A stretch of 64,000 nt of DNA from Rhodoferax fermentans (lineage in GTDB: Bacteria > Pseudomonadota > Gammaproteobacteria > Burkholderiales > Burkholderiaceae_C): contig NZ_MTJN01000002.1 in assembly GCF_002017865.1 (NCBI RefSeq), positions 496,001-560,000 on the forward strand, given 5' to 3'. A program made the position numbers and the translations under genes. The notes beneath the pieces are model-generated. The model was not told the DNA's origin. It was given only the letters and a program-made list of their open reading frames with translations, and searched no databases. This document shows positions 6,462-35,980 of the stretch, piece by piece. Positions within the stretch are counted from its first letter, which is position 1. Every line of letters starts with the position of its first letter.

Positions 6462-6537
6462 TCCTCGATAGCTCAGTTGGTAGAGCGCCGGACTGTTAAT
6501 CCGTAGGTCCCTGGTTCGAGCCCAGGTCGAGGAGCCA
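6462..6537 (+). tRNA. tRNA-Asn (anticodon GTT)
   Basis: 76-nt tRNA with encoded CCA. The acceptor stem TCCTCGA pairs with TCGAGGA; D-arm GCTCAGTTGGTAGAGC; anticodon loop CTGTTAA gives GTT; T-loop TTCGAGC. A strong terminator follows 8 nt later. It is divergent from tRNA-Val. Confidence 0.96.
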
Positions 6538-9249: not shown

Positions 9250-9281
9250 AAAAAGCCTCAAGAATTGCTTCTTGAGGCTTT
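9250..9281 (-). terminator. Terminator probably left from the original tRNA-His locus
   Basis: On the minus strand the stem AAGCCTCAAG/CTTGAGGCTT (10 bp, 8-nt loop) is followed by TTTTTC. It lies just beyond the 17-bp tRNA-His 3'-end copy at 9288-9304, in the position expected for the terminator of an uninterrupted tRNA-His gene on the minus strand. Confidence 0.65.
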
Positions 9282-9287
9282 GAATAC

Positions 9288-9304
9288 TGGGGTGGCTGAT
9301 GGGG
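9288..9304. repeat. Left attachment-site core (tRNA-His 3' end, 17 bp)
   Basis: TGGGGTGGCTGATGGGG is identical to 35774-35790 and in the same orientation. On the minus strand it is the last 17 nt of tRNA-His (CCCCATCAGCCACCCCA). Inside the element, ATGCGGGTTTCAAG at 9336-9349 resembles ATGCGTGTTTCAAG at 35818-35831, at nearly the same distance from the core. I read it as the left end of the integrated element. Confidence 0.65.
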
Positions 9305-9350
9305 AGCCACTGGCCACCCCCCAGGCCCAGTATCCATGCGGGTTTCAAGC

Positions 9351-9392
9351 CGGTTGTTACACAGCTGTGTGTAACAACTAGTGTAACAAATG
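9351..9392. repeat. Possible integrase arm-site repeats, left end
   Basis: GTTGTTACAC and GTGTGTAACAAC form an inverted pair, followed by GTGTAACAA. A similar arrangement (GTGTGTAACAAGCTGTGTAACAA, in two halves) lies at about 35680-35702 upstream of the integrase. Shared motifs inside both element ends suggest integrase or excisionase binding, which is inference. Confidence 0.45.
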
Positions 9393-18112: not shown

Positions 18113-18601
18113 TCAATGTCCCATATATTGTTATCGTGAGCTGCTCACGACAAACGACAATCAGTTGTATGGTCAGTATCGTTCATATGATGCTTACTAA
18201 ATTTGCTCCACCACTCCGCCCATTTGCTGCTCGTCAGCATCCGATATCGGACAGCGCCGACAATCCCTTCAGATGAGGGTAACGGCTAGCTGGTACAAGT
18301 CATCGCTCAAGGACTTGCCTGGTGTTGGCATAAACCATAAAGTTGAGGAGGACCCAGGCTTTGAGTTTGATGCATTTGCCACTTGCCAAGCGCAGACCGC
18401 TCCCGCCGTGGAGCGCACGTGCAAGGTGGAAATGGCGAGTAATGAGGACTCGCCAAATTCCCACTTTGATGCCGGCAATTTTCAGCATCTACTGAAGTTA
18501 GCGGCAGGTGATGCACACCTGAAAAGACGAAAGCCTGGGTTGCGCGCTCCCTGCAGCCGACAATAGTCACACGCATTGCATGGAATTGTGAGGTGCTTGA
18601 A
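18113..18601. other. Divergent intergenic region
   Basis: About 490 bp between two divergent genes. A plus-strand open frame of 97 codons (18273-18566) exists but has no good ribosome-binding site or recognisable features, so I do not call it. The region should contain the promoters of both flanking genes; no clear consensus elements stood out. GAGG at 18590-18593 serves the methyltransferase start. Confidence 0.4.
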
Positions 18602-21154
18602 ATGGCTGGCATTGGTAAGGAGGTTGGCGATAACCTCTATGTCCACTTGACTAACGTAGCTGGGTTGGGGGAAGCTGGTCTGGCGCTCGTCTGCCGAGCC
18701 CTGGCCTTGCTACCCCCTGATGTGCGAGAAAGACCAAACGTTGTAAAGGTCAATAAGCGCACACAGCGAGTCTCGCTGCTTGAGTACACCGAGTTCGAGG
18801 ATGAGCCATTCCCCTTGCTAAAAAGCAGTTGGTCAATGGCGACCCCAGACGCATCAGTTCTCAACTTTCGGTCCTATGTGCAGTCGGCCAACCCGCCCAT
18901 CTTGCACCGCAAGGAACTTCTTGTGTCAAGCGACCATCCACGATACCCGGACTGGGCCAAGACCACGGAGACCTGCGAGGCGCTCGGGCTGTTCGAGCAC
19001 CCAAAAACCATTGGGTTTCTTCTGAACTGGGAGCGAACCATTTCTCTCAAAGGTTATCGATTGGTTGGCTCCGATTTCTTGCCGTTGGGAAATGTGGAGG
19101 CAACTGACGAGACCGACGTGCGGCCCCAAGATGCGTCACCTACCATTCAACGGCATCTAACCGCTATGGCCAGGAGTTCTATTTCGGCGCCGGTACAAAT
19201 GCTGGTGCGCCATGGGCTAATAGATAAGGATGACCTGTTCTTTGACTATGGCTGCGGACGGGGTGACGACCTGAAAGCATTGGCCGACAGCGGTTACGTC
19301 ACGTCAGGTTGGGACCCTTACTATGCCCCAGCAAACGAATTGCCGAATAAGGCCCACGCCGTAAATCTGGGCTTTGTAATCAATGTGATTGACGACCCGG
19401 CTGAACGGGTTGAGGCAATATCCAAGGCGTTTCAGCTCACTAGTGGCGTGCTTTCCGTCGGGGTCATGCTTTATGGCCCAGAGCGGGGTGGGAAGGCGTA
19501 TGGTGACGGCGTTGTTACGTCCAGAGGCACCTTTCAGAAGTACTTTAGCCAAGAAGAACTCAAAGACTATCTTGAGCAGGTTCTGCAACAAGAGGCATTC
19601 CTAGTGGCTCCTGGCATCGCCTTTGTCTTCGCAGACAAAGTGCTGGAGCAACGCTTTCTTACAGCCAAGTACAGGTCGAGAAATGTGGACTCACGCCTTA
19701 TTTTGCAAAGTCGCCGAATTGTTGCTCGACGCGAAGTCCTCCGAGCACATCGAACCACAGCGAACGAACGACGCTTAGAGGCAGCGAGGCCTGTTTTGGA
19801 CTTGTATTGGCAAACCGCCCTTGCGTTGGGCAGATATCCCGGCATTGAAGAGCTACCAGCGGGCTTCAGTTTCAACGGCGCAGTACCCTCGTTACGCAGA
19901 GCATGGCGCCTAATTCACGCCCACTATCCTTTGGAATTACTGGAGACGGCCTGCCAAGCTCGAAAAGACGACTTGCGACTGTACTTTGCAGTTCAGCAGT
20001 TCTCCAAACGCCCCAGGTACCGGCAATTGGAACCTAGGCTACAAAAGGACGTCGCTGAGTTCTTTGGTGACTATTTGTCTGCTCAAGCCGCTGGTCTGCA
20101 GTTGCTCCAAGGAGCCTCCGTCTCTGAAAGAATTCTTGAGGCTTGCAAGCAAGCCGCAGAATCAGGGCTGGGTGCTCTTGAAGAGGGGCACTCATTGCAG
20201 CTACACGTGGAGCTGGTAGACCGATTGCCGGTACTACTCAGGGCGTATATCGCTTGTGCAATGGTGCTTACGCAAGGCCTGAGCGATGCCAAACTTTTGA
20301 AGGTGCACATCACGTCCAGAAAGTTGTCGCTCATGGAGTTTGACGACTTTGAAGCGAACCCATTGCCCTTAATGGCACGGCGTATCAAGGTCAACCTGAG
20401 AAAGTTGACGTATGACCTATTTGAGTACGGTGGTGAGTTTCCAAAACCCATTCTGTATTGGAAAAGCTGTTACCTCAATGAAGACTCCCCGCACTATGCA
20501 GAGCAGTTGGCGTTTGACGAGGCACTTGATGCATCGGGCGTCCTAGGTGACGAAAAATATGGGCCCCGGCCCGAAGAACTGGCGGAACGACTGGAACATA
20601 CACGAATGAGGGTGAAGGGCTGGGAATTGGTGCCCAGCAATACCGTACCCTCACTGGATTCGCCGTGCGGCGTTAACTTCAGCTACCGCGATTTTGTGGA
20701 GTGTGGGGAAACCCAATTGAGACTGGGATGCCGCAACATTCCCAAAAGGCCTGAAACCTACAACGCACTGCACGGTCTGGCTACCAAAATACTGGACCCG
20801 CTTATCGAGTACTTTGGCGCAATAAATCTCACCTACGGGTTCTGCTCGCATGACCTCAGCAAACACATCAAAGAGCGCGTAGCTCCGACCTTGGACCAAC
20901 ACGCTGGAGAAGAGCGCCTGGCCACCGGTGCATTGATATGCAAACGGGGCGGCGCTGCCTGTGATTTCTTGGTTGAATACGAGGATATGCGCGAAGTTGC
21001 TGACTGGACTGTAAAAAACTTGCCATTCGACCGGCTTTATTTTTACGGCTCAGACCGCCCCGTACATATCAGTTGGTCATCAGCTCCTGCGTTCTTAGCC
21101 TACGAGATGCTTCCTAACAAATCCGGAAGACGCATACCTCGGCCATTCAAATAA
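18602..21154 (+). CDS. DNA phosphorothioation-associated putative methyltransferase
   Basis: An 850-residue protein with an S-adenosylmethionine-binding motif I at about residues 213-222 (FFDYGCGRGDDLKAL) followed by a second-strand acidic residue in GWDPYY. The long flanks, with AMARSSISAPVQMLVRHGLI before it and KPILYWKSCYLNEDSPHY later, match the uncharacterised methyltransferase family found next to dnd genes. Target is unknown; it may modify DNA in connection with phosphorothioation. I chose the ATG at 18602 (GAGG 8 nt upstream) over the GTG at 18593. It converges on the DndE-FtsK gene with a 17-bp gap. Confidence 0.78.
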   Translation: MAGIGKEVGDNLYVHLTNVAGLGEAGLALVCRALALLPPDVRERPNVVKVNKRTQRVSLLEYTEFEDEPFPLLKSSWSMATPDASVLNFRSYVQSANPPILHRKELLVSSDHPRYPDWAKTTETCEALGLFEHPKTIGFLLNWERTISLKGYRLVGSDFLPLGNVEATDETDVRPQDASPTIQRHLTAMARSSISAPVQMLVRHGLIDKDDLFFDYGCGRGDDLKALADSGYVTSGWDPYYAPANELPNKAHAVNLGFVINVIDDPAERVEAISKAFQLTSGVLSVGVMLYGPERGGKAYGDGVVTSRGTFQKYFSQEELKDYLEQVLQQEAFLVAPGIAFVFADKVLEQRFLTAKYRSRNVDSRLILQSRRIVARREVLRAHRTTANERRLEAARPVLDLYWQTALALGRYPGIEELPAGFSFNGAVPSLRRAWRLIHAHYPLELLETACQARKDDLRLYFAVQQFSKRPRYRQLEPRLQKDVAEFFGDYLSAQAAGLQLLQGASVSERILEACKQAAESGLGALEEGHSLQLHVELVDRLPVLLRAYIACAMVLTQGLSDAKLLKVHITSRKLSLMEFDDFEANPLPLMARRIKVNLRKLTYDLFEYGGEFPKPILYWKSCYLNEDSPHYAEQLAFDEALDASGVLGDEKYGPRPEELAERLEHTRMRVKGWELVPSNTVPSLDSPCGVNFSYRDFVECGETQLRLGCRNIPKRPETYNALHGLATKILDPLIEYFGAINLTYGFCSHDLSKHIKERVAPTLDQHAGEERLATGALICKRGGAACDFLVEYEDMREVADWTVKNLPFDRLYFYGSDRPVHISWSSAPAFLAYEMLPNKSGRRIPRPFK

Positions 21155-21171
21155 CCGCAAACGTCCCCGCG

Positions 21172-22722
21172 TTACTTTCCGACGCCGCTAACAATATTGA
21201 CGACGTTTTCAAGTCGAACAAACACGCCATGCGCACGCTTAGCGGGCTCTCCTGGCAAGCGTAAAAGCATATCGCCAGAACCTAGCAGGTTGTCAGCACC
21301 AGTTTCATCCAGAATAATTCGGGACTCAGAGCCCGTTCTTACTGTTAGAGCGACGCGTGCTGGAATATTGCTGCGAATCAAGCCGGAGAACGTCTTCGCG
21401 TCAGGCCGCTGAGTAGCCAGTACCAAATGAATTCCTGCAGCCCGCGCTTTCTGCGCCAAGCGCGCAATCAACGGTTCAATGTTTTCGTCCTGCATTAGCA
21501 GGTCGGCTAACTCTTCAATAAACACAACGATGTAAGGAAGGTTTTGCCCCTTCTTGCGGGCGTCGCCAATACTTGACACCCCCAACTTGTTGAACGCCGA
21601 GTACCGCGTATCCATCTCAATTACGAGCTCAGTCAGCATCTCTCGAGACTGCGGGATTTCTGTGGCAATTTCTCCCCGGTACAGGTTGGGTAACTTTGCG
21701 TAAGCTGCAAATTCAACTTGCTTAGGGTCAATCAACGCCAGTTGCAATGTCTCTGGCTTGTGGCGCATCAACAGCGAAAGAATGAACGAGTGCAGGCATA
21801 CGCTCTTGCCGGACCCCGTAGTTCCACCCACTAGCAAGTGGGGAGCCGCTGCAAGGTCCAACGTGACATCGTTTCCGGTGACGTCAACGCCCGCATACAG
21901 TGCCAGTTGATTGACGTCTTTGGTGCCGCCATAGGCCCATTCTTGAAGCCGTTCAATTCCAACGGCCGTCCAGGTGGACTTGGGCCGTGGCACGTCAATG
22001 AATATTGTCTTGGATTCGTCACCGTTGGACACCGCGACTACGTTCGCGCCGAGGTTCAGTGCCAGGCTCAGCTGAGAAACACTGCGGTTGAGCTTGCCCA
22101 GGTCCGCCAAATTCATCAAAAGCACGCGATAGCGCGTTAGGCGAGGGCCCACCAGCGAGTTCTTAACCTGAACCTTGATGCCCAATTCGTCCAAAGCCTT
22201 AGTCAGCGTAGCGGACAGGTCTTGGGCTTCTTCGACCTGGACGGGCGACTTGCCTTGACCGTCGACATTCGCAGGGTCATCCGCCGTGCCGGCGAAATCG
22301 GGCATCTCGGAGCGCCGAATGAGGGCTTCAATGAATTTCTCGTAATTCTCATCACTGGACTTCCATTCCTCCCAAAGCGCAATCGCGCCTCGGTGCCAGT
22401 GCGCACGAATGGCATTGCGAAGTCCGTCCATATTGTCAAAAATAGGGCCCTCAGTAGAAATGGCCTGGGTCAGCAGTAGGCCCACCCATGCCCCTATGTT
22501 TTCGGACGAAAACAGGGAAGTAGCGGGGATGGCCATACCGGATGAATCAATTTTGATGTCAGGCAGTTTGCCCATGGCCAAGGACCTGCCAATTGCCAGG
22601 CGTGCAACCTGAGCTTTGGTGTCGAGTCCGAGGTTCTGCCGAAGTTGGTCCGTGTGTTTGTCGGCTTCCTGGCTTGTCACGTAGCGAGCGCTCAGTACCT
22701 GTTGAATGTCTAATTGGCTCAT
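21172..22722 (-). CDS. DndE-like domain fused to FtsK/SpoIIIE-type DNA translocase
   Basis: A 516-residue protein. Residues of about 10-120 resemble DndE, the small subunit of the DNA-sulfur modification complex: a LGLDTKAQVARLAIGRSLAMG segment after a basic helix, SSGMAIPATSLF, and RAHWHRGAIAL. Residues of about 240-510 are an FtsK/SpoIIIE motor with Walker A GGTTGSGKS (299-307), DPKQVEF, Walker B region YIVVFIEELADLL, LATQRPDAKTFSGLI and a LLGSGDMLL end. FtsK proteins usually have IDEL, so IEEL is a mild deviation. Its ATG overlaps the dndD stop codon (ATGA). It has no membrane segments, unlike cell-division FtsK. No separate dndE gene exists here. Confidence 0.75.
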   Translation of the reverse strand: MSQLDIQQVLSARYVTSQEADKHTDQLRQNLGLDTKAQVARLAIGRSLAMGKLPDIKIDSSGMAIPATSLFSSENIGAWVGLLLTQAISTEGPIFDNMDGLRNAIRAHWHRGAIALWEEWKSSDENYEKFIEALIRRSEMPDFAGTADDPANVDGQGKSPVQVEEAQDLSATLTKALDELGIKVQVKNSLVGPRLTRYRVLLMNLADLGKLNRSVSQLSLALNLGANVVAVSNGDESKTIFIDVPRPKSTWTAVGIERLQEWAYGGTKDVNQLALYAGVDVTGNDVTLDLAAAPHLLVGGTTGSGKSVCLHSFILSLLMRHKPETLQLALIDPKQVEFAAYAKLPNLYRGEIATEIPQSREMLTELVIEMDTRYSAFNKLGVSSIGDARKKGQNLPYIVVFIEELADLLMQDENIEPLIARLAQKARAAGIHLVLATQRPDAKTFSGLIRSNIPARVALTVRTGSESRIILDETGADNLLGSGDMLLRLPGEPAKRAHGVFVRLENVVNIVSGVGK

Positions 22723-23831
22723 GCTGCGACTCCAAAGTACTCACCTGCTACCACCATGGTGCGTCCGATACCGTCGCCCACGTCCGAGTGCTTCAGCAGG
22801 TAGGTCGCACAAACGTGCTTCTCAATTCGGGCGTAGAAATCGCCATCGATTTCCTTGTCTTGCGACAGCAAGATAACTTGGCGATTGGGTGTGCCAATCC
22901 AGAACTTGAAGATGTTTTCCCGGTGTGCACTATCGAGGCGCCCCAACGGGGTGTCGACCACCAACGGTGCATTGATTTCTGAAACCTCTGCAAGACCCGC
23001 GATGAGCGCCGTAGCGAAAATTTGATTCTCGCCGGCAGACCTGTCAAACGTCATCTCCTTACCAGTCTTGCCCAAGATGCGGGTGGTTCCATCGTCATCA
23101 ATTTCAATCTTGGCAACTTGGTCCTTATGAGCCAGCTGCTTATAAACTTTGGTCATGGCCGTGGCGAGCGCCTTGACCTTCAAGGGGAACAGCAGCGGGA
23201 CAACTTCGTCAATGACAGCGCGCACCCGTTCAGACTTGCCCAGCAGGCTACGCACAGGACTGGTCTCGTCAAGACGAGACTTCTCATGGGAATAACTGGC
23301 CTTGGTGTTGCCCACGGTCACTTCAAGGCTGTACTCTTCGCGCTCTTTGTCCTTGATAGCTTGTTCAACGATTTCCATCTCTGAACTGATTCTGTTCAGG
23401 TTTGCAGTAAGGTCGTTCAAGGTGCCATCACGGTCAATGCCCTCGACCCGTGCAATCTTTCGATTGAGCTCCCCAATCTGTTCTTCCAACGCTTTTTGCC
23501 GCGCAAGCAAGTCATGCACTTCTTGCTGTCCGACTTGGATTGTCCCAAGGAAGTTCAGCGCTCTCTCGCGCAGGCCTTCGTGGAGGTAACCATGAACTAC
23601 GTTTTCGGCGCAATTTGTAGGGGCCGGATGAAAGAGCGAGGCCCAGGCCGTTTCAATCCTGGCTTTCACGACGCTGAGTTGCTCGGCCGTCAGCTCTGGG
23701 CTGAAGCCCGGGCCCGAGTCTCCGAGAAACGAGTGCTCAAACTTGTCTCTTTTGGGTTGCAGCGTACGGCACTCGGCCTGCCATTCCGCCAGCGCGATTT
23801 CGCCCTTGAGCTGCGCCTTGAAGTCCGTTAG
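22719..23831 (-). pseudogene. dndD: dndD, 3' part (C-terminal ATPase half), separated by IS
   Basis: This part encodes the C-terminal coiled coil and ATPase half of DndD, with the ABC-type signature SAGENQIFATALIAGLAEV and the Walker B/D-loop VVDTPLGRLDSAHR. In the split state the frame can be entered from a TTG inside the IS end (6 foreign residues, then TDFKAQLK). With the IS and one TTAG removed, it joins the 5' part in frame as PKQLL-TDFKAQLK, giving about 690 residues. DndD is an SMC-like ATPase proposed to open or nick DNA for sulfur insertion. In the present state the protein is probably non-functional unless the halves associate. Confidence 0.9.
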
Positions 23832-25007
23832 GGCAACGCTGAACAAGTAGAGTCAAAGCAGGCCCCAGCGGTATCGAGAAACCGAAGTTGTCGAAATTGC
23901 GACCAGCTGAGCTCGCTTTTGCCCCCTTTGAGGCTGTTTCAGGGGGAATTCACCCCCTATTGCGCCCTCATGGACGCACCTGTGCCATCAGCCTTTGTCG
24001 GCAGAGATAGATGTTGGCCAGCGCCAAAGCAGTAAACGCCCGCGTGGCGTTCTTCTGCAACCCACGGTAACGCACCTTGCCAAAGCCCCACAGGCGCTTG
24101 ACCACAGCAAATACATGCTCCACGCGTGAGCGGATCTTGGATTTGTTGCGGTTCTTGGCGCGAATGCCTTCATCGACCACACCAGAGCGGCGACTGCGCT
24201 GGTTGGTGAAGTCTTTGGCCTTGGGTGCTGCACTGCGGATCAGCTCCTTCTGGCTGGCGTAGGCACTGTCGCCATAGACGCGTTGCTCCTTGCCATGCAA
24301 CAAACTGGGCAGTGGGTGTTTGTCATGCACGTTGGCTGCTGTGACCACCGCATGGTGGGCCAGACCACTTTGGCTGTCCACACCGATGTGCAACTTCATG
24401 CCAAAGTACCACTGTTGGCCCTTGCGGGTTTGGTGCATGTCCGGGTCGCGCGCCTTATTCGCATTCTTGGTGGAACTCGGTGCACCAATGATGGTGGCGT
24501 CCACAATGGTGCCGGTGTTGAGCTTGAAGCCCTTGCTTTGCAAGACAGCGCCTACTTGGGCAAACAGGGCTTGGCCAAGTTTGTGCTTGTTGAGGAGTTT
24601 GCGAAAGTTCAACACCGTGGTGGCGTCCGGCACAGATTCACGCCCCAGGTCAATGCCCACGAAGCGACGCAGGCTCACGCTGTCGTACAGAGCTTCTTCA
24701 CAGGCCAGGTCTGCCAGGTTGAACCAGTGCTGGATGAAGTGGATGCGCAGCATACGCTCAAGCCCGATGGGGGGACGCCCATTACCGGCCTTGGGGTAAA
24801 ACGGCTCGATGACTTCGCACAGAGCGGCCCAGGGAACGATGACTTCCATGGTCTTCAAGAACTCATCGCGCCGCGTGGGCTTGCGGTAGGTCTCAAAGCT
24901 TTGTTGTTCGGCCATGGCCAGAGTTTGTTGTTTCATCTGCATCTCCTGCTTGGGATGCCACGAACCATGCAAGTCATGGGCCAACTGGGGACTTGATCAG
25001 TGTTGCC
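23832..25007 (-). mobile_element. IS5-family insertion sequence, 1176 bp, inside dndD
   Basis: The ends are imperfect inverted repeats: GGCAACGCTGAACAAGT on the left and, read inward from the right, GGCAACACTGATCAAGT (15 of 17 match). The 4-bp target duplication TTAG flanks it at 23828-23831 and 25008-25011; on the other strand it is CTAA, fitting the YTAR target of IS5-group elements. It contains one intact transposase gene. The intact ends, intact duplication and full transposase indicate a recent insertion. Confidence 0.92.
23968..24936 (-). CDS. IS5-family DDE transposase
   Basis: A 322-residue transposase. The N-terminal part has the IS5 helical region (RRDEFLKTMEVIVPWAAL, LERMLRIHFIQHWFNLAD). 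The DDE catalytic core is visible: first Asp in TIVDATIIGAPSS, second in RVYGDSAYAS, Glu in IRSRVEHVFAVVKRLWGF. The start at 24936 (MKQQTLAMAEQQSFE) is chosen because the 16 codons upstream are atypical. The frame is uninterrupted, so the element may still be active. Confidence 0.95.
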   Translation of the reverse strand: MKQQTLAMAEQQSFETYRKPTRRDEFLKTMEVIVPWAALCEVIEPFYPKAGNGRPPIGLERMLRIHFIQHWFNLADLACEEALYDSVSLRRFVGIDLGRESVPDATTVLNFRKLLNKHKLGQALFAQVGAVLQSKGFKLNTGTIVDATIIGAPSSTKNANKARDPDMHQTRKGQQWYFGMKLHIGVDSQSGLAHHAVVTAANVHDKHPLPSLLHGKEQRVYGDSAYASQKELIRSAAPKAKDFTNQRSRRSGVVDEGIRAKNRNKSKIRSRVEHVFAVVKRLWGFGKVRYRGLQKNATRAFTALALANIYLCRQRLMAQVRP

Positions 25008-25971
25008 TTAGCAACTGTTTGGGCATGAGGTGGAAGGGGAGCTTGTCTGCCAGGATGCGCTCCAATTGCTTTTGCGCATCACCCATCTGTGAGCGCAAGC
25101 CTTGGCGCTCTTCTGCGAGGTCTTTAACAGTTGCGATGTCACCGCGGCCGCCGCCGGCACTGGTAATGCGCTGAAACAGCGATTCACGCTCGGCCTTCAG
25201 CATACTCAACCGTTCGCCTTGTGTTGACAACTCCGCGCGTACACCCGCCAGCCGTTCTTCATCTGCAGTAAGGGACTCCAGCAACCGCGAGATGTTGCTC
25301 TCGTCCACATTGCTGACGTCCGAACGTTTACCGTTCTCAAAGCTACGCAGCCGCTCCGCTAATTGACGCAGCAACACGACGCCAAGTAAGCCTTCAAGGC
25401 CGACCTTCACTTGTTCTATCCGCTGCTGGTCCGCAAGCTTCTTCACTTCTTCGCCATCGAAGAAGAAAAACGGCGCGATGTGCGCTGGGACAAAGTTGTC
25501 GTCCAATAGTTCTGCCAACTGAAAGCCGTTGGCACCATCTCGCCGTGGGGTCCCGCGAACATTGCGAGTCAGTTCGTAGACCAGGGCTTCTTCTTCGTTG
25601 GTCCAAATGCCACTGTTGGTGCGGAAGTACCAGCGCCGGTTAATTTCAAAGGCCTTGGCGCGGCTTTTGTTGAACACTATGCGGACCGACATGGAGTTCT
25701 GTCCGTCGCGCTTGGCCTCACCGTTGAACGCCTTTTCGAGAAAGGTTGGATAGCCCCGCGCGTCGTCCATTTTGAGGCCCGCGCGCGCTAGGTGAATGAT
25801 GGCGTCTTTGCCGTACAGGCAGAGGTACAAGGCCTCCAAAACCGATGTTTTCCCGTACCCGTTCATGCCACCTATCAGCACGATGTTTTCACCGTTGACA
25901 GGCTCAGGAAATTCGAATTCTGCGTGGCTGTAACTCTTGAAGTTGGTCAGCTCTATTTTTGAAATCCACAA
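25008..25971 (-). pseudogene. dndD: dndD, 5' part (N-terminal ATPase half), separated by IS
   Basis: The N-terminal half of DndD: an SMC/RecN-like head with a Walker A loop GGMNGYGKTS (residues 34-43), LYGKDA, FFFFDGEEVKKLADQQR, and the first arm of a coiled coil. The frame runs 321 native residues to PKQLL, then three codons into the IS before a stop. The start is a TTG preceded by GGGAG at good spacing, with an in-frame stop just above, so a TTG start is likely. It lies 12 bp downstream of the small gene and in the same operon as dndC. Confidence 0.9.
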
Positions 25972-25983
25972 GATAGCTCTCCC

Positions 25984-26214
25984 TTAATCCATCCGACCGA
26001 GGATTTCCTCAAATCGCATGAAGATTCCGCGCGCTCGCTCCTGGTGCTGCCGTTCTCGCTGCAGAGTCACCAATTCAGTCAAAACGTCTATCGGGACGTT
26101 GTGCCGCTCACAGACTTGTTGCAATTTGGTATGTGCATCAGTATCCGTCCAAAGAGGAAGGTCCGCGAGGGACCTCTGTTCTTCCAGTACGTTGTCTTCT
26201 TGAATATCAGGCAT
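25984..26214 (-). CDS. DNA modification system-associated small protein
   Basis: A 76-residue acidic helical protein (ERHNVPIDVLTELVTLQRER) whose start overlaps the dndC stop by 8 bp and whose stop is 12 bp before dndD. It corresponds to the small protein often encoded between dndC and dndD in variant systems, of unknown role. It is too short and different to be DndE. Tight spacing suggests a structural or chaperone partner of DndC or DndD, which is inference. Confidence 0.7.
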   Translation of the reverse strand: MPDIQEDNVLEEQRSLADLPLWTDTDAHTKLQQVCERHNVPIDVLTELVTLQRERQHQERARGIFMRFEEILGRMD

Positions 26215-27331
26215 GTGCGAGACTCTCCTCCGTTTGTAGGTCGGTAGCCCATACTTTGTGTATGAGGTCGATTTCTTCTGTTGTTATCAGCGTGGCGCCG
26301 AACTCCTCTTGAACCTTCAGGAGCCCATCCAAGATTTCTCGTCGGGCCTGTATCGTGAAGGGGCCCGGTATGTGCTTACCAGTCAGGTCAAACGTAAGAC
26401 GTCCGTTTCTTCGCACCGCGCTGCGCCGTGCGGGGTCATTTCGGATGTCCACAAGCCAGTCCCTAAAGGCAACCAACGGCTTGTACGCGTGCTTTCCGGA
26501 GTCGATGAAGCCTTGCAGGCTCTTGTCCTTCTCGACAACGGTGCAGGTCCAGCATCCGAAACGACTGTTTTTTGTGCCGCAGCCAGGTGCTTCTTCCTTG
26601 CTGAGCACGACGGGGCATTCCCCGCCTTCGGCGTCCCGATATAGCTGAAACAGCTTCTGGTGCGTACCACCCCATGGCGCCTGGAAGCTGCCCAGGATTT
26701 CCCAAACGTCGTCCGTCGTGAGGTCAACGATGGGTCGGTAAATCAGGGCGCCGGGAATAGAGGTGTGCTCAGTGAGTTGCGTGCCACGAACATTTTCATA
26801 CTTATTGATGGTGTTCATCCGCTGAATGCTCTCCGAGCGGCGAACGCCGAGCACCACAATCGCAGCCCCGTGCTTGGACACGTTTTCCTTGATGTAGGTA
26901 CTGGTTGGCTGAATTTTCAGTCGGTCAGTACACCAACGCATGGACGAATTTGGACTTGGGTAACCTTTGCCAATTAACAAAACCCAAAATGTCTTATCCG
27001 GGTCTGGCTTCGTGCGAGCTACCGTAATAGGCAAATCCAAACCACGCCCAGCCTCATCAATCAGGTAAGTGACTTCGTCCAAATGGGCCATGACAAGGGG
27101 ACTTTCCACCATGGTGTCATTGGACACCACGTGAACTGGACGGGTTCGCTGTGACGGCGCCATGGTCATCAGCGCTTCGAAAACTGCGTGAGCGACCAAG
27201 GTAGAGTCTTTGCCACCCGAAAATCCAATAATCCAAGGATAGTTCTGCGTCGTAGAGAGGTACTCCTCCCTCACGTTGTTGACGATTTCATGCCACTGGT
27301 CGAGCACGCTCAAAGATGTTGTTTCTGACAC
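26207..27331 (-). CDS. dndC: DNA phosphorothioation sulfurtransferase DndC
   Basis: A 374-residue PAPS-reductase/ATP-sulfurylase-like protein. The PP-loop SGGKDST is at residues 38-44; downstream motifs include a GVRRSES segment, and a Cys cluster (CPV, PGCG, GCWTC at about residues 240-263) suited to an iron-sulfur cluster. DndC uses ATP to activate the DNA backbone and carries sulfur from a cysteine desulfurase (family knowledge). The start is GTG (MSETTSLS). It heads the operon dndC, small protein, dndD, dndE-ftsK; no dndA or dndB is present, so a chromosomal IscS-like desulfurase would be needed. Confidence 0.92.
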   Translation of the reverse strand: MSETTSLSVLDQWHEIVNNVREEYLSTTQNYPWIIGFSGGKDSTLVAHAVFEALMTMAPSQRTRPVHVVSNDTMVESPLVMAHLDEVTYLIDEAGRGLDLPITVARTKPDPDKTFWVLLIGKGYPSPNSSMRWCTDRLKIQPTSTYIKENVSKHGAAIVVLGVRRSESIQRMNTINKYENVRGTQLTEHTSIPGALIYRPIVDLTTDDVWEILGSFQAPWGGTHQKLFQLYRDAEGGECPVVLSKEEAPGCGTKNSRFGCWTCTVVEKDKSLQGFIDSGKHAYKPLVAFRDWLVDIRNDPARRSAVRRNGRLTFDLTGKHIPGPFTIQARREILDGLLKVQEEFGATLITTEEIDLIHKVWATDLQTEESLAHA

Positions 27332-30155: not shown

Positions 30156-30761
30156 ATGAAATCATTTCTCATCAAAGCCCCAGCGAAGGGAAAAACCACC
30201 TGCACACTGGTACGCCAGTTCTACGACAAGGCGTCACGACGCACCAAGACGCAGTACCTTGGCAGCTTCAACGTCGCCATTGACCCGTCAATATTGCCAG
30301 CAGGCGTGCGCCTGCGCCCGAACGTCGAAATCGATGCCGAGCAGCTTGCAGAGGTTGCAAGCTGGCTCAAGCAAAACGGCACCTTCGGCCAAACCCCTAT
30401 GCTCTCAGCCGCCGTGCTTGAGCAAGCCCGTCGGCACTTGATGGAGGTCATGCACGACGAGCGCATGCAAGTTCATCAGCAATCGGACCTCGACCTTGCG
30501 GCCAGCATTTTGAATGGCGCCGCCATGGACCTCCAACATGCGTCCGCACAACTCCGCTTGCAAGGCATTGAACTCTCCTCCGGCATGCTCATCTATACCG
30601 GGACTGACATGGCCAAGTGCATCAATGACATGGACCGCCTAAAAGTGCAAAGCAATCAAATTCGCGCGGCTGCAACTCAGTTTGAAGAAGCGCTTAAAGA
30701 AGCCAAGCTGATGAAGCGGCTCAACAAGATTGCAAAGGCGGGCAACCATGCCACGCACTGA
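30156..30761 (+). CDS. Hypothetical protein preceding the replication initiator, 201 aa
   Basis: A mostly helical protein. The N-terminus (SFLIKAPAKGKTTCTLVRQF, YDKASRRTKTQYLGSFN) resembles short basic strands of DNA-binding proteins; the C-terminus has coiled-coil-like charged helices ending in KLMKRLNKIAK. It overlaps the start of the TrfA-like gene by 14 bp, so the two are translationally coupled. Unknown function; possibly an initiator accessory or copy-number protein. Confidence 0.6.
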   Translation: MKSFLIKAPAKGKTTCTLVRQFYDKASRRTKTQYLGSFNVAIDPSILPAGVRLRPNVEIDAEQLAEVASWLKQNGTFGQTPMLSAAVLEQARRHLMEVMHDERMQVHQQSDLDLAASILNGAAMDLQHASAQLRLQGIELSSGMLIYTGTDMAKCINDMDRLKVQSNQIRAAATQFEEALKEAKLMKRLNKIAKAGNHATH

Positions 30762-31902
30762 CCCTCTGCACCCGTCCCAAAATGACCGCCAAACAGGCAT
30801 CGACGCCGTGCCATCCAATGTTGAACAGCGCCCTCCCCTCGCGACGAATCCACGACGTTTCCATTCTTCCGCAGATAGAGAGGCACAGGAGAGAACCCCG
30901 TCACCGAACGAGCAACCTGCTTCTGAAAATGGGAGTGTCAGCGAAAGCCTATTGCCGCCTGCCATAGTTGATGAATCAGACTGCCATGGCAGACCGTTGA
31001 TTCGACGCGCAGTCATTGCTTCGAAACTGAAGTTGCAAGAGCAGCGTGCAATTGCATCACAACAGGCCGGTGGGTTGAAGTACGGTGCCGAAAAACACAG
31101 CTTGCACAAGCATGTTCAAGATTGCTATGCGGACGAACAAGCCCTCGAAAGTCGACTGGAAGATAACTTCATCCCTGGCCACGGTCCAAATCAATTTTTG
31201 AGTCCAAGGTCATTTTTTCAAACTCAACTGTTTGGAGCAGGTAACCACGCAATTCAGCGAATTCACCACGTTGAAATCGTGGTTGCAGAAAAGAATGAGA
31301 AGCCCATCATTACCTACCGCGGCCCGGAGCTTCGCCAATCTGATGCCAAGGTTTTTCTGGCGCTTCTGCACATGCTTCGAGATGTACAAGTAGGCACCCA
31401 GGTGCACCTGGAACCAGAGCCAGTATGCAAAGCGCTGTTTGGCCGATACGACGGCCACAGCCGCAAGCAACTGCGCGAACACATACAGAGATTGCAGACC
31501 GGCCTCATCATCACCGAAAAGTGCAGTATTCAACTCTGCCAAGCATTTGAGCATCCGAATGCTGGGCTTTGGTCAGTGGCACTTCACAGCAACATTGTTG
31601 AGCTTTTCAGACTGTCACAGCGTGTTTGGCTCTCTTTGCCCATGCGACTTAGCCTGCCAGATGGGCTTACGTCTTGGCTCTATGCGTACATCGAGAGCCA
31701 ATCTCGCCTCATACCCACCAACGTTTCCACCTTGCTGGAAAAATGTGGGTCAACATCTAAACCGCGTGGTTTCCTGAACTCACTGCGCCGCTCACTCAGG
31801 GAATTGGCGAACAGGGGCATCATTGAACCGGGCTGGTCCATTCGAAAGGGACTTTTACGCTGGATGAAAAAATCCGGCGGCCCAAATCGGTGGGAACAGT
31901 AG
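30748..31902 (+). CDS. trfA: TrfA-like plasmid replication initiator
   Basis: A 384-residue protein. After a disordered N-terminal third, residues of about 150-380 follow the pattern of TrfA of IncP plasmids: NQFLSPRSFFQTQLFGAGN, IHHVEIVVAEKNEKPIITYR, GPELRQSDAKVFLALLHMLR, GTQVHLEPEPVCKALFGR and, later, LPDGLTSWLYAYIESQSR with two winged-helix regions. TrfA binds iterons at oriV and recruits the host helicase. The ATG at 30748 is chosen over 30730. The iteron array directly downstream (31913-32212) is the expected target. This gives the island a plasmid-like replicon. Confidence 0.85.
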   Translation: MPRTDPLHPSQNDRQTGIDAVPSNVEQRPPLATNPRRFHSSADREAQERTPSPNEQPASENGSVSESLLPPAIVDESDCHGRPLIRRAVIASKLKLQEQRAIASQQAGGLKYGAEKHSLHKHVQDCYADEQALESRLEDNFIPGHGPNQFLSPRSFFQTQLFGAGNHAIQRIHHVEIVVAEKNEKPIITYRGPELRQSDAKVFLALLHMLRDVQVGTQVHLEPEPVCKALFGRYDGHSRKQLREHIQRLQTGLIITEKCSIQLCQAFEHPNAGLWSVALHSNIVELFRLSQRVWLSLPMRLSLPDGLTSWLYAYIESQSRLIPTNVSTLLEKCGSTSKPRGFLNSLRRSLRELANRGIIEPGWSIRKGLLRWMKKSGGPNRWEQ

Positions 31903-33833: not shown

Positions 33834-35660
33834 TTAGCCTTGCGCCTTTTCGGCTTTTTTGGCCTTCTTGGCCTTCCTGGGGTACCTGACATTACCCTTG
33901 CCCGGCAACCACGGTTGAGCGGGAATGGGGTAAAACTTGATTTTCGCGAACTCCGTGGTCAACACGTCCAAGGGAACGTCTTCAATTCCGTAACCGTCAG
34001 TGACGGTTCCCAGACCGCTTGCGTGACCCAACACGCGTTGCAGGTACATTGCATCGACATTCGCCCGGGTCATGGCATCCTTCATCGTGTGGCGGAACGA
34101 ATAAAGCACTTTCTTTGGGTTGTTAATGCCGAGCATGTCTCTTTTGTAACGACCAAAAAATTTAGAGAACGCACCCGACAATTTGTCATGCCAGTCGTGT
34201 GTCAGGCTTGGGAATAGAGACTGCTGACCGCTGCGTCGGACGTGCTCAATGTATCGCAGGAGCCCCAGCTGCATCAGTTCGGGGGCAACCGGCACACGGC
34301 GGATGGAATCTCCGTTTTTGAGCAATCGACTGTGGGACTGGGTCTCATCGCCTTGAGTCGGTTTGGACTTATGCGTGGGTTTGGATTTCGGCTTTTCTTT
34401 GGATATGACGTTTTCTTCATCATCAAACAAGTCATCGTCCTCTGACGGGCGGTCAATCAAATTCATATACCAGCCGTACTTTGGGTCCTGGACCACATCG
34501 GACAATGCAAGACCGGCAATTTCTTCCGTCCGTGCTCCGGTGTAGTACATCAGAATAGGAATCCAATAACTCGCCTCCTTTGACTGCCCTTGCGAGCGCA
34601 GCTGTTGTTCATTGAAGACGCAAGAAGAGAAGATGTTGGTCAGGTCATCCTGGTCAAACGGCTGGCGCTTGTCGCGTCGCTTCACGAAGCTGTTTTCTTT
34701 CAATCCGAGGGTGTCCGCTGCCGGGTTGTGAGACATGATGCCTTTGCCCTTGAGCACTTTAAAAAGCGCTTTGACCTTTGCCAAGCGCTCGTTGAGCGTC
34801 ACAACGGCCAGGCCACGAGCCGCCATTTGGTCGACAAACAGACGCATCAGGTCGGGAGTGACCTCCTCGGGACATTGAATGCCATGCTCGGCGCCCAGGC
34901 GTTTGACCTCCAAATAGGGGGTTTGCGTGGCGATGGCGGTGCTTTTCGGTCGCCCTGGCACGTAGTCCCGCCAGACCACAAATGCTGCATCCCAGCTGAT
35001 TTTCTTGGCCTCGACTGCGGCCTGAGCTTCGACCAAGTCTCGCGGAGCCAAAGTTTCAGGCGCAACTTTGTCGGTCTGGACCACATCACCGCGTTGACGC
35101 TGCAGTTGAAAATCCAGCGCAGTGCAGACAGCCGTCAGAAACACGCCGCCGGCGCGTTTGGACTCCTCGGGCGACATTTCGACTTCCAGCCCGCAGAGGT
35201 GGATAAACGAATGCATGGCCGGCAGAATTTTGTCCGAACGCCGCATGGCCAGCATGCGCCCGAGCTCGGCGCGCTGCTCAGTCATGTTGAAGCCCTTCTC
35301 CTCGAATTCCTCCTCGGAGTCGTGCTCGCGGTAATGCTCATCGGTAGCAAGAACCTGATGGACCCAGTAATCCGCCAGCGACTTGAGCATCTCATCAGAC
35401 ATCTTGTCGAAACGTTTGACCGAGCGCTCGTCTCTTTTTTTCTTGAGGTCTTTGCGGTGCTGCTCAAATTCAGCCTTGATGCGTGTGCGCGCAATGTCTT
35501 TAAGGTCATTGGCGATACGAAGGTCGCAGGTACCTAGACATACCACTTCGTGGGTCTTTTTGGGCGGATAGGCCGACAGGATGTCTTTGGGGATGCGGAG
35601 ACGCAGATAAATGCTGCCGAATTTGCCTCGCGAATAGAGGTTTGGAGAGATTTGTTTCAT
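33834..35660 (-). CDS. Tyrosine-type site-specific integrase
   Basis: A 608-residue integrase. The N-terminus (LYSRGKFGSIYLRLRIPKDI) is the DUF6538-like domain of large integrases; the core-binding domain lies at about residues 230-320 and the catalytic domain at about 340-580. Catalytic residues: Arg in TGARTEEIAGL (about 374), the RHT box in YSFRHTMKDA (about 521), HASGLG, and Tyr in DGYGIE (about 557). An acidic, low-complexity insert (EDDDLFDDEENV, KPKSKPTHKSKP) lies between the Arg and the second box, and the C-terminus is Lys/Ala-rich. It lies about 110 bp from the att core, the usual integrase position, so it probably integrated the island into tRNA-His. Confidence 0.92.
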   Translation of the reverse strand: MKQISPNLYSRGKFGSIYLRLRIPKDILSAYPPKKTHEVVCLGTCDLRIANDLKDIARTRIKAEFEQHRKDLKKKRDERSVKRFDKMSDEMLKSLADYWVHQVLATDEHYREHDSEEEFEEKGFNMTEQRAELGRMLAMRRSDKILPAMHSFIHLCGLEVEMSPEESKRAGGVFLTAVCTALDFQLQRQRGDVVQTDKVAPETLAPRDLVEAQAAVEAKKISWDAAFVVWRDYVPGRPKSTAIATQTPYLEVKRLGAEHGIQCPEEVTPDLMRLFVDQMAARGLAVVTLNERLAKVKALFKVLKGKGIMSHNPAADTLGLKENSFVKRRDKRQPFDQDDLTNIFSSCVFNEQQLRSQGQSKEASYWIPILMYYTGARTEEIAGLALSDVVQDPKYGWYMNLIDRPSEDDDLFDDEENVISKEKPKSKPTHKSKPTQGDETQSHSRLLKNGDSIRRVPVAPELMQLGLLRYIEHVRRSGQQSLFPSLTHDWHDKLSGAFSKFFGRYKRDMLGINNPKKVLYSFRHTMKDAMTRANVDAMYLQRVLGHASGLGTVTDGYGIEDVPLDVLTTEFAKIKFYPIPAQPWLPGKGNVRYPRKAKKAKKAEKAQG

Positions 35661-35980
35661 GTAGCTTGTATCACTGTTGTGTGTAACAAGCTGTGTAACA
35701 ACCAGACTTTAAATCTGGCCCGAAACCCTTGATTTATAAGGAAATCAAGGACTTACGGCATGAAAATGAAAGATGGGGTGGCTGATGGGGCTCGAACCCA
35801 CGACAACAGGAATCACAATGCGTGTTTCAAGTCAATCAAATCAACGACTTACGCAGCTTTCTGCTACAAAACATACTCTAATACTATCTGAGACTGTCTA
35901 ATAGTCTCGTTCTAACGTAGCTTCATTCTGTGCGGCACGCACTCTCACGTTATCGAGCCTTTGGCCATGCAGCTGGATTT
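35661..35980. other. Right-end attachment region
   Basis: Contains GTGTAACAA-type repeats (about 35680-35702), a tRNA-His 3' fragment (35774-35819), ATGCGTGTTTCAAG (35818-35831), and an inverted repeat GAGACT/AGTCTC at 35890-35908. No gene is seen. The inverted repeat, read on the minus strand after the prophage late genes, might slow transcription, but no T run follows it. Confidence 0.55.
35774..35819 (-). repeat. tRNA-His 3' fragment (attachment site)
   Basis: On the minus strand the 46 nt from the anticodon loop to the CCA end match tRNA-His as I know it (ATTGTGATTCC, then GTTGTCGTGGGTTCGAGC and CCCATCAGCCACCCCA) with one mismatch in the anticodon stem. The 5' half of the tRNA is absent, so it is not a functional gene. 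The first 17 bp repeat the left att core at 9288-9304. Confidence 0.8.

Follow-up and report, generated by a model that had tools for sequence, protein, structure and literature searches.

A dnd operon interrupted within dndD

The dnd-type locus of Rhodoferax fermentans raises the question of whether it is a working, poorly described phosphorothioate (PT) modification system that dispenses with the usual partners, or what is left of a known one. It lies within the 64,000 nucleotides analyzed here (contig NZ_MTJN01000002.1, positions 496,001 to 560,000), referred to below as the window, and includes dndC, a gene for a small protein (SP), dndD, a dndE-ftsK fusion and a convergent gene for a putative methyltransferase (MTase). 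A first-pass annotation had leaned to the former, seeing a possible modification-only or alternative-effector version with the defense role taken by the FtsK motor or the MTase. We consider it likely that the window instead holds an inactivated copy of a known PT modification subtype, probably carried on a mobile island.

The gene content given by the first-pass annotation stands for dndC, SP, dndE-ftsK and the convergent MTase gene, and has to be corrected for dndD, which is not one gene but two pieces with an insertion sequence (IS) between them. The open reading frames (ORFs) of the N-terminal piece (24997-25971, minus strand) and the C-terminal piece (22719-23846, minus strand) both match the DndD family TIGR03185, neither being an intact DndD ABC ATPase, and align to residues 1-322 and 320-689 of the intact 689-aa DndD from a genome of the same family, G332. 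The element that separates them is intact, 1176 bp long (~23832-25007, minus strand) and carries an IS5-family transposase ORF (23968-24984; NF033581, 335.3 bits); the last codons of the N-terminal ORF and the first codons of the C-terminal ORF are IS sequence. Its limits were set by alignment with seven other copies from the same genome, its termini are imperfect inverted repeats, and TTAG flanks it at 23828-23831 and 25008-25011 as a 4-bp target duplication. At least 11 near-identical copies, each covering at least 1161 of the 1191 queried bases at ~100% identity, occur elsewhere in the genome; the search listed 18 matches, including the window's own copy and six shorter or diverged ones, with 40 of 56 candidates scored. 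Because dndD is split in this way, PT modification by the window locus is probably abolished, which would make it a dead copy.

The remaining operon genes place this copy within a described subtype. The 516-aa dndE-ftsK fusion (21172-22722, minus strand) has an intact ORF in which an N-terminal DndE domain, divergent and fused to FtsK (PF08870, 28.5 bits against a cutoff of 25), is followed by an FtsK alpha domain (FtsK_alpha) and an FtsK/SpoIIIE motor (FtsK_SpoIIIE) with the motif GGTTGSGKS; profile scans found no nuclease domain in it. DndE and FtsK in a single polypeptide beside a DndD-like ATPase are the feature of the DndE-FtsK subset: in the sections we drew on, Rakesh, Aravind and Krishnan (2024; PMC10853773) describe DndE fused to a clade-3 HerA/FtsK next to a DndD-like ATPase, and report that PT loci and DndFGH are frequently decoupled, the likely effectors then being other nucleases, among them HNH enzymes of the sulfur-binding domain (SBD) type. 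Since both the design and the decoupling had already been published, the window is a degenerate member of that subtype, and the description of the system as poorly described does not hold. The window shares with this subset the DndE-FtsK polypeptide and the adjoining DndD-related ABC ATPase within a PT system, a likeness of architecture, and DndFGH was not seen in it; it differs in its IS-split dndD and in the adjoining MTase of family TIGR04096. The same sections of that paper neither treat TIGR04096 nor tie SP to DndC.

The 374-aa DndC (26207-27331, minus strand) scores 366.9 bits against TIGR03183 (cutoff 290.4) and has a PAPS-reductase domain, and it is a short form that stops where long DndCs run on into a tail. 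A loop-to-motif code for DndC has been described (PMC12193691, as far as the parts consulted go). The loop just ahead of MRWCTDRLK reads N-S-S in the window and N-Q-Q, N-M-T or N-S-T in relatives, with R-P-K in several long DndCs. A DNA query with dndC gave no match in E. coli genomes. The canonical DndBCDE system on a megaplasmid of Pseudoalteromonas shioyasakiensis (L075) likewise has DndC, DndD and DndE modules, with a TIGR04096 gene upstream; unlike the window, it has a long DndC with a built-in tail, a standalone DndE, and DndB.

Related loci and the missing partners

Intact copies of the dndC-SP-dndD-dndE-ftsK operon occur on a Burkholderia glumae, an Aureimonas and a Rhizobium phaseoli plasmid, as well as in an IMG/VR contig (L038) and in G332, which is the closest syntenic locus (identity to the window: DndC 78%, DndD pieces 68%, DndE-FtsK 69%, MTase 55%). 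In Mesorhizobium, an SP-ATPase-DndE-FtsK set adjoins a separate dndC-ATPase-dndE set. The order in G332 is MTase, HNH protein and an IS3-type ORF, facing DGQHR, hypothetical, dndE-ftsK, dndD, SP and dndC. Its HNH protein matches the PT-dependent endonuclease ScoMcrA (5zmm) with an E value of 1.9e-9 over both the SBD and the HNH part, and has H/K and YP at the places of the sulfur contacts H116/R117 and Y164/P165, as given in the portion of the ScoMcrA study considered here (PMC6224610). Its DGQHR protein matches PF14072 DndB (44.4 bits). PADLOC at E 0.01 had no match among six neighbor proteins from G332. Neither gene was found in the window by tblastn, either with the G332 SBD-HNH protein (at E 1e-3) or with four DGQHR proteins.

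These four queries detected DGQHR in four of 11 loci (G332, Aureimonas, R. phaseoli and Mesorhizobium) and not in the other seven (the window, B. glumae, four viral contigs and the genome G560), some of these being short or breaking off close to the operon. The first-pass annotation had accepted that its interpretation would suffer if DndB or DndFGH regularly stood near homologous loci and had simply been lost here; this is borne out in part for the DndB-like gene, and not for DndFGH, as none of the four plasmid relatives examined showed a DptFGH annotation.

Its observation that a Dnd-type module is present while DndB and DndFGH are not seen was confirmed. Whole-genome searches gave no match to DndB (TIGR03233; controls matched in two of 14, none above cutoff), to DGQHR (TIGR03187; controls matched in two of 14) or to GmrSD_N (PF03235; controls matched in eight of 14), the DUF262 domain carried by effectors of the SspE/DndI type. 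DptH (TIGR03237) and DptF (TIGR03238) also had no genome match, with no control matched either, and DptG was not searched; the restriction genes that the first-pass annotation had suggested looking for elsewhere in the genome were not found with the GmrSD_N, DptF and DptH profiles, the last two of which were silent on the controls. No cysteine desulfurase (DndA) was noticed beside the operon, the genome not having been searched for DndA/IscS. By analogy with Rhizobium, a hypothetical-DGQHR pair was suspected in the upstream ORFs 30156-30761 and 30730-31902; it was rejected, as profile searches and tblastn were negative.

Because the window dndD is IS-split and G332 has genes both for the SBD-HNH nuclease and for the DndB-like DGQHR protein, their absence from the window is better explained by decay or rearrangement than by a modification-only or alternative-effector design, although this comparison relies on one relative and is not proof.

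The TIGR04096 methyltransferase is shared among PT systems

The MTase gene (18593-21154, plus strand; 853 aa; TIGR04096, 'DNA phosphorothioation-associated putative methyltransferase', 508.1 bits against a cutoff of 150) converges on the dnd operon, with 17 bases from stop codon to stop codon. The protein has a motif of the S-adenosylmethionine type, FDYGCGRGDD; its score against Methyltransf_23 (18.5) is below the cutoff of 27, and methyltransferase activity is putative. NPPY and DPPY are methyltransferase motifs, and neither was noticed by eye. Of 399 genomes from this bacterial family, five score above the TIGR04096 cutoff, one of them being the genome that holds the window. In the literature searched, the name TIGR04096 turned up in one paper. 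Among plasmids, 39 records match it, and the neighborhoods of 10 full-domain matches (H1-H5, H7, H9, H12, H15 and H20) were examined, together with an eleventh reached via H45.

The neighbors of these genes are diverse. Ssp-like genes, named by gene order and similarity, stand beside the MTase in L005, L021 and its chromosomal twin L032, L024, L030, L074, L076, L077 and L078; dndB-dndC-dndD-dndE, as annotated, in L075; and the DndE-FtsK operon in the window and G332. DndC and DndD were matched beside it in L001 and L004, where DndB and DndE are assumed from size. Other neighbors are a cysteine desulfurase (L079) or decayed dnd genes (L080), with none recognized in L002, L003, L022 and L023. 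The Ssp-like loci, such as those of Azospirillum (L024) and G346, resemble SspABCD single-strand PT systems, which have the same MTase family alongside and differ in using another ATPase and a DUF4007 protein in place of DndD and DndE. Among genomes of the genus to which the window belongs, G346 combines the MTase with Ssp-like genes and G284 encodes a long DndC. When 18 MTases were placed in a tree (L080 omitted), the window fell in a fully supported clade of eight whose partners are a mixture of Dnd, Ssp-like and DndE-FtsK, and partner labels change five times on the tree against a shuffled mean of 4.7. No MTase relative was confirmed in viral contigs.

As the family is common to Dnd, Ssp-like and DndE-FtsK systems, it is not a special effector of the DndE-FtsK operon; judged from gene neighborhoods and the tree, the TIGR04096 MTase is an accessory gene exchangeable among PT systems at large, and its biochemical role merits study. 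The suggestion that it takes over defense here is unsupported on the same grounds, the tree not being sorted by partner.

This bears on an alternative, a self-contained variant with the FtsK motor or the MTase in the place of DndFGH, whose motor would strip or pump unmodified invader DNA and make a nuclease unnecessary. The open frame of the DndE-FtsK fusion is in keeping with it, as is the C-terminal HerA/FtsK motor of DndH reported in the sections of PMC10853773 that we used; the B. glumae plasmid and viral contig L038 copies also show no DGQHR, and PADLOC at E 0.01 found nothing among four L038 neighbor proteins. Against this stand the fusion without a detectable nuclease domain, an MTase that is not specific to the operon, the SBD-HNH nuclease at the nearest syntenic locus and the disrupted window dndD, so that we regard this variant as quite unlikely and keep to the reading of an inactivated copy.

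Several features of the MTase family were also recorded. The N-terminus of the window's MTase (~aa 4-157) duplicates the domain at TIGR04096 positions 320-470, the two stretches compared being 18602-19063 and 19145-20632. Long-form members have an extra C-terminal domain (~aa 680-853) that matches alone in Aeromonas, Nostoc and Geminocystis records; in Geminocystis it lies near a cysteine desulfurase gene and dndB. This domain gave a weak lead to Peptidase_M15_3 (PF08291; E 0.074, one of four fragments), and a PDB search with it returned nothing meaningful. A sequence-based search for an SBD in the HNH protein of Methylibium (L021) was negative.

The small protein corresponds to the DndC tail

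The 76-aa SP (25984-26214, minus strand) matches PF20306 (59.3 bits, over the Pfam cutoff) and also the end of the DndC model (TIGR03183 positions 387-444 of 447, E 1.5e-4); in G747 the PF20306 match falls within the DndC reading frame itself. An SP profile recovered long-DndC tails from G747 (E 4e-5) and Pseudoalteromonas (4e-4), the best of 2800 shuffled decoys reaching 0.75; it also recovered that of L049 (3e-9), and it matched seven of 20 long DndCs at E ≤0.05. Profile-profile comparison by hhalign, using well-filled columns of 10 SPs against 21 long DndCs (L083, with no SP match, and L116, a near-copy of L112, omitted), gave a probability of 95.8% and a score of 49.4 for the tail, whereas the DndC core gave 0.3% and 14.3, and none of 100 column-shuffle controls scored above 17.3; untrimmed SP against whole DndC gave 89.1% and 39.1.

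Gene order follows the same division. The loci in which an SP comes after a short dndC are those of the window, of G332, of the B. glumae, Aureimonas and R. phaseoli plasmids, and of viral contigs L038/L046, L047, L048 and L052, the last of which has no DndD that we could find. Among 40 DndC-like loci, 20 have a long tail (≥89 aa), none of them with an SP ORF found downstream, and 20 are short. The short forms comprise six in SP-bearing loci (window, G332, L038/L046, L047, L048, L052), where the G332 and L046 SPs were missed by the ORF filter and established from other comparisons; one interrupted gene (L091); and 13 set aside as having no DndD in the DNA examined (L050, L051, L053-L060, L094-L096), which for L094-L096 covered ~1.5 kb on each flank, so that a DndD further away would be missed.

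At the level of sequence, SP is a homologue of the segment by which long DndCs dock, at their C-terminal end, onto DndD, and DndC is therefore split into two genes here. In E. coli B7A, the DndD-binding part of DndC has been placed at residues 433-482, and binding is lost in L458D/E462A/R471A (PMC12193691, section 2.3, in the part available to us). Pseudoalteromonas DndC has L469/E473 and arginine 482 at equal spacing within its SP-like segment, onto which the B7A contacts would map; the window SP retains the leucine, has Q for the glutamate and carries the arginine one position earlier. A docking role for SP appears plausible on this basis. No statement of the SP/DndC-tail homology was found in the literature searched, in which PF20306 and Sp-DndD go unmentioned.

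SP might alternatively be a negative regulator or viral-trigger sensor instead of a piece of DndC, a proposal of Rakesh et al. that reportedly has an earlier source in Krishnan et al. 2020. In the sections used, PMC10853773 proposes this role for the rapidly evolving SPs of CxC systems, and the CxC-system SP may be a different protein. Given also the DndC-tail homology with its clear controls, and the presence of SP ORFs after short DndCs of this operon type and after none of 20 long ones, we find a regulatory role improbable and retain the detached-tail interpretation.

The IMG/VR contigs contain both arrangements, a DndC with a fused SP-like tail in L049 and a separate SP in L047, L048 and L052; PT genes may travel on mobile elements or in phages.

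Proposed mechanism and points against the reading

In intact relatives, a cysteine desulfurase would supply DndC, the short DndC would activate and transfer sulfur, and SP, as the detached C-terminal segment of DndC, would tether it to the DndD ABC ATPase. DndE-FtsK would read and pump DNA, letting the DndD-DndC assembly sulfurate its sites, and an SBD-HNH enzyme or another nuclease would use the PT mark; some relatives add a DndB-family DGQHR gene, and G332 adds the SBD-HNH nuclease, which probably reads PT. In the window this chain would be broken at DndD. A more ambitious proposal is PT writing by separable parts (a short DndC, a free SP docking subunit and a DndE with its own pump), with motor-driven deposition, a non-canonical motif (loop N-[SQM]-[SQT], not RPK) and a PT-linked MTase shared among unrelated PT systems; we put this forward tentatively and think it rather unlikely to hold in full.

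That the locus is instead a PbeABCD/CxC system is very improbable: PADLOC gives PbeC PDLC02733 as the best match of both dndD pieces (415.1 and 441.7 bits) and an SP gene, as described in CxC systems, is present, but the PbeC label was rejected, as neither piece contains the CxC motif and five intact relatives (G332, the viral contig, and the B. glumae, Aureimonas and R. phaseoli copies) lack it too; moreover, no HKD nuclease or helicase occurs among the window ORFs scanned with Pfam, dndC lies within the operon, and the window SP is homologous to the DndC tail.

Several observations weigh against the inactivated-copy reading or its parts. The cut-down DndD could keep some function. The DndE domain match is weak, both to PF08870 (28.5 bits) and to TIGR03184 (25.1 bits, below the cutoff of 71.85), and the absence of DptF and DptH counts for less because no control matched. 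As to SP, its profile had no match at E 0.5 in L111-L118 (eight Burkholderiales), L083, L089, L090 and L092; L091 has an interrupted DndC next to DndD with no SP found; and in Mesorhizobium it is an ATPase gene that comes after the short dndC, SP lying beside the second ATPase instead. For the MTase, G332 is the window's nearest row in the tree, and a single origin of the two operon-linked MTases appears in 19% of bootstrap trees. Finally, G332 is the one relative with the MTase and operon laid out as in the window, and an IS has disturbed it as well; the original set of genes therefore cannot be reconstructed, and SBD-HNH or DGQHR genes may never have been present in the window.

The window copy would thus be a relic, and the comparison still yields testable points, among them that fuller DndE-FtsK loci may rely on an SBD-HNH nuclease and a DndB-like gene in place of DndFGH.

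Genomic context

The region from ~6500 to 36000 has a low GC content (52-58% in 2-kb steps, against 61-62% to the left) and adjoins a tRNA-Asn gene at 6462-6537. It includes a 608-aa tyrosine recombinase (33834-35660), and imperfect direct repeats at 9281-9389 and 35654-35790 may be element ends. A DUF6988 protein encoded at 17441-18112 matches the PADLOC candidate defense family PDC-S52 (147.6 bits) and lies near resolvase, HAD_SAK_2 and nucleotidyltransferase genes. This neighborhood suggests a defense or mobile island. The 390-aa protein encoded at 30730-31902 had no profile match; by eye it resembles a TrfA-like plasmid replication initiator.

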